Assembly: GCF_018687785.1 (NCBI RefSeq)
Contig: NZ_LTBL01000001.1
Coordinates: 1,231,780-1,295,779 of the forward strand
Reading direction: 5' to 3'
DNA length: 64,000 nt
Origin: Methanovulcanius yangii
GTDB taxonomy: Archaea > Halobacteriota > Methanomicrobia > Methanomicrobiales > Methanomicrobiaceae
Under the pieces are notes generated by a model. That model made no database searches and was not told the origin of the DNA. It saw only the letters and a program-made list of their open reading frames with translations. The translations under genes were made by a program, and so were the position numbers. Below are positions 22,781 to 25,456 of the stretch, in pieces. The first letter of the stretch is position 1. Each line of letters opens with the position of its first letter.

Positions 22781-23527
22781 TTACATATCCTCCAGTCTCT
22801 TCAGTGCCCCTGCGGTCCAGACGGTCAGCCTGCCGGCCTGTGTGCCCGGGGCAAGAAGCTCTGCATTGAGTTCTGCGACGCTGACGGCATCGACACCTGC
22901 AAGGTTCGATGCTGCCTTCAGGGCAGTCTCACCGGTTACGATAAGAAGTGACGTGCGCTGCTTGTACCTGCGGCCACGCAGTTTCCCGCGGCCTGCACGG
23001 ACCTTGCGGCTTGCTGCGGAGCGTTCCACATCTGCGAAGACGCCTGCTGCACGGAGAGCATTTACCACATCGGAGGTCTTGGTGAGGCCTTCAAATGCAT
23101 CATCAAAGACAACGGGAATCCCTGCTTCGAAGCGGTGTCCGCGGGCTGCGACGAGTTCTTCGTTGATAGTCGCGGCAATTGCCGAGCGAATCGCCTTCCT
23201 CTTCTCCTGCTTGTTCATCTTTCGGACGAGGATCTTTGCAGTCTTCGGGGGGTGTGCAACACGTCCACCGACGGACTGGGGAATCCGTGCAACACGGGAA
23301 CCGTTCTTCAGGCGGGGAACCTGTGCGACACCACGGCCACTTCCCCAAGAGACCGCAGACGTCCTCATGCCTGCATATGGGTCGGTGCCATGAGGCTGGT
23401 ACCTCTCGCTCTGGAGTGCAAGAACTGCGTTTTTGATAAGATCCGGGCGGTAATCTTCGCTGAATACTGCCGGAAGATCGATCTCTCCTGCAGAGCCGCC
23501 GTCAAGTGTTCTAATCTGTGCTTTCAT
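22781..23527 (-). CDS. rpl4: Ribosomal protein uL4 (archaeal L4/L1e type)
   Basis: Large-subunit protein with an extended loop in the exit tunnel, 248 residues. The loop contains DPYAGMRTSAVSWGSGRGVA and RIPQSVGGRVAHPPKT. The C-terminal half includes LLIVTGETALKAASNLAGVD. It lies 6 bases after L3. In bacteria L4 represses its own operon; whether this applies here is unknown, but the L3 leader is structured. Confidence 0.97.
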   Translation of the reverse strand: MKAQIRTLDGGSAGEIDLPAVFSEDYRPDLIKNAVLALQSERYQPHGTDPYAGMRTSAVSWGSGRGVAQVPRLKNGSRVARIPQSVGGRVAHPPKTAKILVRKMNKQEKRKAIRSAIAATINEELVAARGHRFEAGIPVVFDDAFEGLTKTSDVVNALRAAGVFADVERSAASRKVRAGRGKLRGRRYKQRTSLLIVTGETALKAASNLAGVDAVSVAELNAELLAPGTQAGRLTVWTAGALKRLEDM

Positions 23528-23533
23528 TCCTGA

Positions 23534-24490
23534 TCACCCCTGTTTGCTGGCAAGACTGACGTACTGGATTACCGGTACGCGGTCTACATGGTTTCCTGGA
23601 CGGATGGCCGGACGAATTCTGATAAGACGTTTTACCGGTCCGGGCACCGAGCCCTTGATGGCGACATAGTTCGACCGGACAAGACCATAATTCACAAATC
23701 CGCCTGCCGGGTTGATGTCTTCACCGCTCGTGCCGAACTTCAGAATCCGCTTGTTGTACTCGGTCCTCTGCTGGTATCCCATCTGACCCATCTGCGGAAC
23801 CTGCCACCTGACGTGGGACGGATTGAACGGCCCAAGGTTGCCGATATGACGCTTCTTTCCCTGACGGCCGTGTTTCCCCTTCCGGGTCTGAATGCCCCAG
23901 CGCTTTACCGGACCATTTGTTCCCTTTCCGGTGGTAATTGCGGTGACATCGATGTACTGACCTGCATCGAAGATCATATCCGCTGTGATTTCGGTTCCCA
24001 TGAGAGAGATTGCATATTCTACACGCTCTGCCATGCTGTCACCGCCGACACCCATTTCCATGATGTCGCCGGTCTTCTTCGGAACACCGGTAATCTCCGC
24101 GGGCTGCGTCTGCATGATGACAAAAATATCCGAGAGTTTCCCGGCTTCTGCCGCTTCGCGGATCCTGGAAACGTCTTCCTCGGACCATGCTTCAGCACAG
24201 GCGTGCTTCCCATAGGTATCCTCCCTGTAGCCACGGACACCGACAACCTTCATCGGGGGAATTTCAACAATGGTTACGGGCACCATGATCTCTTTGCCTT
24301 CTGACGGGCTGGAGGCATGGTCATCCACCATAATAAGATGGGTCATACCCACCTTATAGCCGGCAAATCCCTGCAGCGCCGGTTCCCCGTCGTACGCCGG
24401 CCAGGAGTGGTATTTTGGTACCTGGCTCAGGGCACGTTTGCGGGGACTGTATGCAAGTGAGCCCCTGCGTGGTCTGGATGTTTTCGACAT
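23534..24490 (-). CDS. rpl3: Ribosomal protein uL3
   Basis: First gene of the ribosomal operon, 318 residues, an early-assembly protein near the peptidyl-transferase centre. It starts [20 protein letters not shown] and includes [20 protein letters not shown] and [20 protein letters not shown], all diagnostic of the archaeal form. No strong ribosome binding site precedes the ATG; the bases before it are GATTGATCGAAAA. The leader upstream is long and rich in hairpins. Confidence 0.97.
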
Positions 24491-24628
24491 TTTTCGATCA
24501 ATCCTGTATTCTTGGTTTCAGTTGCGAACGTTAAGCCTCAGGGCACGAATGTGCCTGGAGCTCCGAGATTTCGTGCTGACAGTTCAAGGGTCAACTGACG
24601 CCATGGCCTTGCGGCCGGTTTCCGATGA
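24491..24628 (-). promoter_or_regulatory. Structured 5' leader of the ribosomal operon
   Basis: About 138 bases lie between a predicted start site and the L3 ATG, long for an archaeal ribosomal mRNA. On the minus strand three hairpins follow one another: GGCC-GCAA-GGCC with a GNRA tetraloop (24605-24616), CAGTT/AACTG (24580-24597) and GGCAC-ATTC-GTGCC (24542-24555). No convincing open frame runs through it. The arrangement looks like an RNA element that could be bound by a ribosomal protein, but no known leader family was recognised. Confidence 0.45.
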
Positions 24629-24649
24629 TGCAGCGTACCGCACGAAAAC

Positions 24650-24663
24650 CTCTTTATTAAGAG
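24650..24663 (-). promoter_or_regulatory. Predicted promoter of the ribosomal operon
   Basis: On the minus strand CTTAATAAAG, preceded by GGAAATCT (BRE-like), forms a TATA box about 165 bases before the L3 start. It is flanked by 5-bp inverted arms CTCTT/AAGAG. It is the nearest acceptable TATA box to L3; a second, stronger one lies further up. Confidence 0.4.
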
Positions 24664-24893
24664 ATTTCCGACGAATTCCCTGCATACGGGCCCTTTTAGG
24701 TTGGGAGATTCTTCCGGTGTGGACCGGAATTGCTGATTCTCACAAAGTGATCCTGATTCTTCCCGCATTCTGCGCACCCATGATGGGCGGCGGAAATGGG
24801 CTCGTTTCCACGAAACGTCCACCCTTACGGTTCCGTCAGATCCTACGTCTTTCACCTGTTGCGCCTGTGCACAACCCATCTCGGTATCTCCCC

Positions 24894-25020
24894 CCTCCGA
24901 AAACGGAGGTGAGAGCCACCACGATATGAGAAGATCTCACCGGGCGGCCGGAATGATTCCGGCACCGGTAGATGAAATCCTCATATTGGTTCCATAAATA
25001 TTGCAAAGAAAGAGATATAA
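24894..25020 (-). ncRNA. Candidate structured RNA or distal leader: three perfect inverted repeats behind a TATA box
   Basis: On the minus strand TTTATATC (25013-25020) is a good TATA box lying just beyond the tfx stop codon. Within the next 100 bases are three perfect inverted repeats: GCCGGAA/TTCCGGC with a 3-base loop (24947-24963), GGTGAGA/TCTCACC (24908-24941) and CCTCCG/CGGAGG with a 4-base loop (24894-24909). No convincing gene is seen from 24664 to 24893; a 113-codon open frame there looks like chance. It could be a small RNA gene or an alternative far-upstream leader of the ribosomal operon. I could not match it to RNase P, SRP or box C/D RNA. Confidence 0.35.
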
Positions 25021-25051
25021 ACATGTCGGAAATTTGGAGAAAAGGAGTGCT

Positions 25052-25456
25052 TCATCCGAAGCAGAGATCGCCTTCTTCGGTGATATACACCTCAACATCA
25101 TCCCTGACAAACCGACCCTTGAACCGTTCCGGGTTTGATTCCTTGAGACGGTTAATGAGACCTATTGAATCGTACCGCACCTTGATATGTATCTTCTCGG
25201 CCTCGGTATATATCTCCCCTATTGCATCGAAGAGATCCGTGCCCGACTTGATCGTACAAAGATGCGTCGCATCAAGAGTGTACAGGAATTCGAGAGTTTC
25301 CTTTGCTTTTTCGATATTCTCATATGCAGCCTTCTCAATCGTACACACATTCGCCTTGGACGTGTGGATGATATCTGCTATCTGTTGCTGTGTGAGACCC
25401 TGCTTGCGGAATCTGAGCACCTCTTTCTGCCGATCGGTAAGGAGCCCTTGTTTCAT
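25052..25456 (-). CDS. tfx: Tfx family transcriptional regulator
   Basis: A 134-residue DNA-binding protein of the archaeal Tfx family. An N-terminal helix-turn-helix of sigma-70 region 4 type is clear (LLTDRQKEVLRFRKQGLTQQ and QIADIIHTSKANVCTIEKAA), followed by the conserved Tfx C-terminal domain ending in DDVEVYITEEGDLCFG. In Methanothermobacter Tfx binds downstream of the fmdECB promoter of molybdenum formylmethanofuran dehydrogenase. Here it is divergent from mtd across 140 bp, so regulation of mtd is an inference worth testing. No ribosome binding site is visible; AAATAGTTTAAG at about 25486-25498 would place transcription start just before the ATG, so the mRNA may be leaderless. Confidence 0.9.
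   Translation of the reverse strand: MKQGLLTDRQKEVLRFRKQGLTQQQIADIIHTSKANVCTIEKAAYENIEKAKETLEFLYTLDATHLCTIKSGTDLFDAIGEIYTEAEKIHIKVRYDSIGLINRLKESNPERFKGRFVRDDVEVYITEEGDLCFG

Follow-up and report, generated by a model that had tools for sequence, protein, structure and literature searches.

The leader in front of rpl3 and rpl4 in Methanovulcanius yangii (order Methanomicrobiales, phylum Halobacteriota) appears to descend, in its middle part (24704-24943), from the middle of a gene of family PF02598, whose annotated function is that of a putative RNA methyltransferase of the SPOUT type (Methyltrn_RNA_3). We consider it likely that a cis-acting RNA was born inside this gene and that the gene's middle was retained as the rpl3-rpl4 leader, with autogenous control of the operon as the most likely role. 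All positions refer to the window, i.e. the whole stretch of 64,000 nucleotides that was analysed. A sequence-only reading had drawn attention to the interval 24894-25020, which probably contains the promoter of a structured leader of about 500 nt together with the hairpins at its 5' end. By its score the leader is a member of the Rfam family RF03135 (L4-Archaeoglobi r-leader) and thus of a known kind. What is new, among the literature matches listed and as far as the accessible parts of these sources go, is the position of the element inside a gene in most matches of the phylum and its survival after the loss of this gene.

Table 1. Position of the features discussed (window coordinates unless a locus is named)
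Feature	Position	Strand	Basis
tfx, upstream neighbour	25052-25456	-	PF14601, E 1.1e-30
TATA box TTTATATC of the leader promoter	25014-25021	-	sequence
5' leader of the rpl3 (uL3) operon, about 500 nt	24491-24992	-	gap without recognised gene; predicted transcript
Stem A, 5' hairpin with GCCGGAA/TTCCGGC at its top	24927-24983	-	covariation; mostly outside the PF02598-homologous block
Inverted repeat GCCGGAA / TTCCGGC	24947 / 24957		located in sequence
Inverted repeat GGTGAGA / TCTCACC	24908 / 24935		located in sequence
Inverted repeat CCTCCG / CGGAGG	24894 / 24904		located in sequence
Stem B, hairpin with CCTCCG/CGGAGG at its top	24882-24921	-	covariation
PF02598-homologous block, frame broken	24704-24943	-	nhmmer E 6.3e-28, profile positions 313-548 of 873
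Leader core, model R1	24704-24868	-	108.3 bits, E 1e-22; window copy in the training alignment
RF03135 (L4-Archaeoglobi r-leader) match	24753-24839	-	39.1 bits, gathering score 34.5
rpl3 (uL3), first gene after the leader	23534-24490	-	PF00297, E 7.9e-87
rpl4 (uL4), ligand guessed in the literature	22781-23527	-	PF00573, E 2.8e-39
RF03144 match, Bathycorpusculum	L312:5895-5942
RF03144 match, Bathycorpusculum	L320:6149-6196
RF03144 match, Bathycorpusculum	L298:5865-5912

Promoter and hairpins at the 5' end of the leader

The inverted repeats and the TATA box named in the sequence-only reading are all present at the locus, and its supposition that such repeats are unlikely to occur by chance was borne out. 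Perfect inverted repeats of six nucleotides, overlaps counted, number eight versus 1.0 on average in 2000 mononucleotide shuffles (equalled in 0.05%), and those of seven nucleotides number four versus 0.24 (equalled in 0.3% of the mononucleotide shuffles). The 130-nt RNA from 24872 to 25001 on the minus strand folds with -58.9 kcal/mol versus -41.4 kcal/mol in 200 dinucleotide shuffles (sd 3.9, z -4.5); for the whole leader, z is -4.2.

The assumption of three perfect stems needs a correction. Two of the repeats form the tops of stems A and B, for which relatives show conservation with compensatory change, namely the ten near genomes that make up the window's genus and one sister genus, but the pairing GGTGAGA/TCTCACC is not conserved there. 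The three stems are in fact unable to form all together, GGTGAGA and TCTCACC being strands of the other two hairpins. As a conserved helix of its own this pairing was rejected, since 58.6% of its cells are paired, compared to 57-64% after shifts of +1 to +3 and 33-47% after shifts of -1 to -3. Stem B consists of 18 pairs, seven of them with double-sided changes, and 96.1% of its cells are paired; helix 1 of stem A shows double-sided changes in nine of 17 pairs (82.9% of cells paired) and its apex helix 2 in two of three (75.9%). For both stems together, 88.7% of 379 cells are paired versus 46-59% in slid controls, although these ten sequences served both to derive the structure and to test it, which favours it over the slid versions. 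Double-change cells amount to 39 versus 13.1 in shuffles, with none of 500 shuffles as high, and double-change pairs to 18 of 38 versus 9.7. The secondary structure of the leader is thus conserved with covariation in stems A and B, and in part also in the core that follows them. Model R2, which comprises stems A and B, matches four of 44 further Methanomicrobiales loci at E<1 and two at E<0.01, so that in most of the order this exact 5' form is either missing or has diverged too far.

The TATA box lies 31 nt from the end of tfx (25052), its last base being one past the end of the flagged interval. At the same alignment columns, a TATA-like element is found in all ten near genomes, with at least one base changed in five of them. 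From TTTATATC and the spacing between TATA box and start site that is usual in archaea, a transcription start at about 24992 is predicted, and transcription would proceed from this box towards rpl3 and rpl4; rpl23 and rpl2 were recognised by eye in the list of open reading frames. The leader measures 505-516 nt from the conserved 5' block to the ATG in each of the ten near genomes. The idea of a distal leader of roughly 500 bases for the ribosomal operon, raised in the sequence-only reading, is supported by the rpl3-facing strand, by the TATA-like element and the length kept in the ten near genomes, and by the r-leader family found inside.

That reading had also considered an independent small RNA gene, for which the promoter-like box and the strong fold of the flagged piece could speak as well. 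The Rfam search it had proposed did return a known family, but this was RF03135 within the leader and not a small RNA: no C/D-box family matched above gathering, and the only small-RNA hit was snR40 at 25024-25108, with 15.2 bits versus a gathering score of 50 (E 3.6). Two terminator-like sites exist on the leader strand between 24400 and 25500, where 0.9 are expected on both strands; the first falls within stem B and the second lies upstream of the TATA box, and since neither sits behind the flagged hairpins, they indicate no transcript end there, which counts against a separate gene. The same is true for the constant place of the leader core described below, which lies upstream of rpl3 in 79 of 80 loci according to model R1 (30 aligned and 50 searched, L061 being in both) and in L065 according to a sequence pattern. 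A stand-alone small RNA gene, for which we found no support, is therefore highly improbable.

An observation apart from the leader concerns the first protein of the operon. In the window, uL3 has a length of 318 amino acids, as it has in the other genome of the genus and in two of the sister genus, and the other 36 of 40 genomes measured encode proteins of 334-338 amino acids. The uL3 of relatives aligns in two pieces around residue 105, which suggests a deletion of about 19 residues in the window's uL3.

Homology to the PF02598 gene and the conserved core

Among 150 Methanomicrobiales genomes, incomplete ones included, only four match PF02598 (two of the 108 genomes with at least 90% completeness), and all four genes are located directly upstream of rpl3. 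The other 146 genomes gave no match. The window's own genome belongs to these, its best value in the protein search being E 0.012. The position before rpl3 was verified by order and strand in 30 loci and for the four Methanomicrobiales genes; a loose pattern for the uL3 N-terminus was found nearby in 29 of 30 loci of the RF03135 survey, in 28 of 33 further PF02598 loci and in 48 of 80 PF02598 loci.

A nucleotide profile built from the four Methanomicrobiales coding sequences recognises 64 of 75 gene-less regions upstream of rpl3 at E<0.05, 49 of them at E<1e-10, and at E<0.05 neither the antisense strands nor any of 225 mononucleotide shuffles gave a match. All matches at E<0.05 fall within profile positions 289-580 of 873, i.e. 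the middle third, and both ends of the gene are absent; the lone match outside this block (L080, profile positions 2-39) is weak (E 0.38). Sorted by family, 23 of 23 regions match in f1, 7 of 7 in f2, 10 of 10 in f3, 12 of 12 in f4, 11 of 14 in f5 and 1 of 9 in f6. A phylum-wide nucleotide profile of the coding sequence still recognises 45 of the 75 regions at E<0.05. The protein HMM, which is weak when used alone on such relics, matches 17 of 79 loci in sense versus none in antisense at E<1, and the four loci below 1e-5 equal the number of intact genes. One of the 80 loci, L135, was omitted from the counts for the protein HMM, the coding-sequence profile, the core pattern and the families, since its rpl3 start was not parsed; model R1 finds the core there, too.

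The statement of the sequence-only reading that there is no protein frame holds insofar as no intact gene was found in the flagged interval, but its part from 24894 to 24943 is homologous to former coding sequence. Enzyme-like peptides of the block (GGGRYRDGLC, DVGSDGTVRVDV and FRSTPEES) fall in two different frames. Since the block spans 24704-24943, stem B and the core are gene-derived, and most of stem A and the promoter are not. Single-sequence folds of intact PF02598 genes show a stem B-like hairpin at the homologous site in L071 and L072, and another fold in L087 and L094. In the gene of L072 (139-1023, minus strand; genus g7), the stretch SRDGAFRCTPEESPGYRGY behind the core deviates from the consensus of 16 proteins (SRRPL..ELV..PxYWGY), as if an RNA hairpin had constrained the protein.

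The core itself was modelled from 30 gene-less leaders (R1). A regular expression finds it in 58 of 79 regions, four of which are intact genes, and R1 matched all 50 Methanomicrobiales loci searched (five of them partially, the weakest with E 2.3e-4, and with the window's locus L061 being part of the training set). The top scores among the 70 loci given to R1, 127-130 bits, belong to the four intact genes of the order; the 20 PF02598 loci from other orders or groups gave 13 matches at E<0.01 and three weaker ones, and the remaining four did not match. The core has a length of 97 nt in all four intact genes, and in 54 gene-less leaders it varies between 78 and 137 nt, the length modulo 3 (21/19/14) favouring no frame. 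Its closing helix is almost invariant, with 97.5% of cells paired in the 30 sequences of broken frame, so that its support comes from conservation and not from covariation. Double changes affect four of 16 core pairs, a number reached by 113 of 500 shuffles, and are mostly located in the inner helices; paired cells, double-change cells and covariation score each exceed all 500 shuffles. Covariation in the core is thin because most of its pairs are invariant. The most drifted core is that of family f6 (L127-L136), in which coding-sequence homology is left in one of nine regions and five R1 matches are partial.

A mimicry of 23S rRNA by the core was considered and rejected. When six cores were locally aligned to the 23S region of the window's organism, none of the best scores reached the 95th percentile of its 100 shuffles, and of 13 core motifs searched in the stretch around this 23S two were found, both in the 1500-nt flanks and none in the 23S rRNA itself. 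Without a likeness to 23S rRNA beyond that of shuffles, such a mimicry is unsupported.

Invariant sequences like those of the core could equally represent a site where a protein binds to DNA, for instance an internal promoter or operator for rpl3, and the retention of the block beside rpl3 after gene loss would suit such a DNA element. However, a DNA site does not explain why stems A and B and the inner helices of the core show compensatory changes, nor why the core varies in length while the closing helix is kept. Moreover, the TATA-like element of the ten near genomes is situated upstream of the entire block. We therefore regard a DNA element as improbable and an RNA as the better description of what was retained.

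RF03135 inside the gene in the Halobacteriota

RF03135 was found in 117 of 196 Halobacteriota genomes at E<=0.001, in 105 of them above the cut-off, in a genome search whose filters lose weak matches. PF02598 is present in 103 of these 196 genomes. In the 98 genomes that possess both, the RNA match lies inside the gene in every case, on the same strand and in a single codon phase, and one of these genes (G191) contains an internal stop. Outside the Methanomicrobiales, all 96 genomes with an RF03135 match have it within the PF02598 gene; conversely, the 19 genomes with RF03135 but no PF02598 match all belong to the Methanomicrobiales. As a non-coding leader the element occurs in the window, where the frame is broken and the element precedes rpl3 and rpl4 on their strand, and in none of the 98 gene-bearing genomes. 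The length of the match equals 1 modulo 3 in 92 of these 98 genomes, the six exceptions all having a length of 84 and belonging to one family, and the corresponding distribution in the 19 gene-less genomes is 10/5/4. Five genomes (G272, G249, G278, G171 and G220) have a PF02598 match without an RF03135 match; the RNA might be lost, diverged or missed by the filters in them. Haloferax volcanii, which served as control genome, matches both.

Among 38 named PF02598 loci, hand-chosen from 80 and scored for RF03135, 18 reach the gathering score, always inside the gene match. Five of six loci titled Archaeoglobales, Archaeoglobaceae or Archaeoglobus are among those with the element (34.9 to 43.6 bits, within PF02598). 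None of 16 PF02598 loci titled Bathyarchaeota, Bathycorpusculum, Thermoproteota or Nitrososphaerota reaches the gathering score, which argues that RF03135 is not simply dictated by the needs of the protein. The RNA looks like a feature of the Halobacteriota copies of the gene and not of the whole PF02598 family. Another leader family, RF03144 (eL15-Euryarchaeota leader), was found above gathering in three Bathycorpusculum genomes and hence outside its namesake group.

Intact genes were also compared for synonymous identity. In 29 genes of haloarchaeal type, a group name inferred from the proteins, it amounts to 1.96 in the retained block versus 1.54 in the rest (rank 8 of 231 blocks, p 0.0008), and in 23 other genes to 1.61 versus 1.22 (rank 1 of 207, p<0.0001); in these statistics codons and genomes are not independent, and the block was anchored by hand to the relic homology when the codon profile was already known. 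Tests on the maximum window are marginal, with 104 and 63 of 2000 permutations as high. The codon profile held one gene twice (L087 is identical to L172), and the duplicate was removed for the gene tree and the later synonymous tests.

These results bear on the possibility that RF03135 is nothing but conserved coding sequence and that the window's leader is a decaying PF02598 pseudogene with incidental structure. The confinement of the element to the gene, in one codon phase, in all 96 genomes outside the order and likewise in five of the six loci titled after the Archaeoglobales, Archaeoglobaceae or Archaeoglobus, the namesake group of the family, would be expected then, the authors of RF03135 rate their motif as borderline (PMC7247131), and in f6 the coding homology is nearly gone. 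However, under plain decay one would not expect 63 of 66 regions from f1 to f5 all to have kept this one middle part of the gene and lost both of its ends, and neither the closing helix, near-invariant despite a broken frame, nor the raised synonymous conservation of the block in intact genes is accounted for. We consider a mere pseudogene unlikely. A dual-purpose RNA in the gene beside the L3 operon, present phylum-wide and repeatedly freed as a leader upon loss of the protein, is the reading to which we incline slightly.

From gene to leader: history, mechanism and meaning

The history of the gene within the Methanomicrobiales was followed on a tree of uL3 and uL4 for 40 genomes of the order and four outgroup rows, with uL3 alone representing the outgroup and two of the genomes; the tree comes from a quick search without bootstrap. 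On this tree, parsimony needs at least three changes for the presence of PF02598, and if regain is forbidden, about eight losses can be read from it, with several forks on the path having SH-aLRT values below 95. The four Methanomicrobiales genes form one clade in the tree of the SPOUT gene (SH-aLRT 100), which fits vertical descent, and transfer within the order is compatible with it, too. Several losses are likely, and one loss followed by regain through transfer is possible.

We infer the following stepwise history from gene to leader. A cis-acting RNA would already have been embedded in the PF02598 coding sequence before rpl3. When the enzyme was lost in most Methanomicrobiales genomes, the outer parts of the gene would have vanished and the RNA-bearing middle would have stayed as leader. 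Excess ribosomal protein of the operon might bind to the folded core and thereby lower the expression of the operon, a control that would be exerted from within the gene before rpl3 in gene-bearing species and from the leader in the window. It is a guess, taken from the literature, that uL4 is the ligand: in the paper describing RF03135 (Eckert and Weinberg 2020, PMC7247131), L4 is assigned on prior grounds.

It is also conceivable that the RNA's ligand is or was the SPOUT enzyme itself, binding or modifying its own mRNA, given the putative RNA methyltransferase function annotated for PF02598 and the place of the RNA in the enzyme's own gene. The persistence of the RNA in an order where 146 of 150 genomes, incomplete ones included, have no PF02598 match makes this quite improbable, and autogenous control by a ribosomal protein remains our preferred explanation.

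According to its table, the published RF03135 motif occurs in Archaeoglobi upstream of rplC, rplD, rplW and rplB (PMC7247131), and the window resembles it in a score above gathering, in strand and in the place before rpl3 and rpl4. It differs in extent, since RF03135, listed in that publication for Archaeoglobi only, comprises 85 positions in Rfam, and the window's match is one part of a leader of about 500 nt. Another difference is that all 96 matches outside the Methanomicrobiales lie inside a protein-coding gene. No paper that ties RF03135 to PF02598 was found among the literature matches listed, within the accessible parts of these sources. Compared to the PF02598 gene, the window's leader shares homology in its middle but has no frame, neither of the gene's ends and no protein.

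In archaeal L1 autoregulation the regulatory site of the ribosomal protein lies within the coding sequence; the open reading frame is kept there, whereas here the RNA has outlived it. The L7Ae leaders of archaea, in which the ribosomal protein binds a 5' leader and regulates translation (PMC5539422 and PMC6298567), combine a ribosomal protein with a 5' leader as we propose here by inference, but they are short k-turn elements in front of one gene.

If the proposed history is true, a borderline database entry would become a strong RNA candidate through a natural experiment, in which the RNA has persisted without the protein. RF03135 would then be an in-gene element across much of the phylum and not an untranslated leader of the Archaeoglobi only, and the Methanomicrobiales would provide a clear example, among prokaryotes, of a protein-coding gene of which only the regulatory RNA survives. 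The gene would have become a leader because its mRNA was of greater value than the encoded protein. For the archaeal L3 operon, Haloferax volcanii thereby offers a system in which intragenic regulation can be tested.
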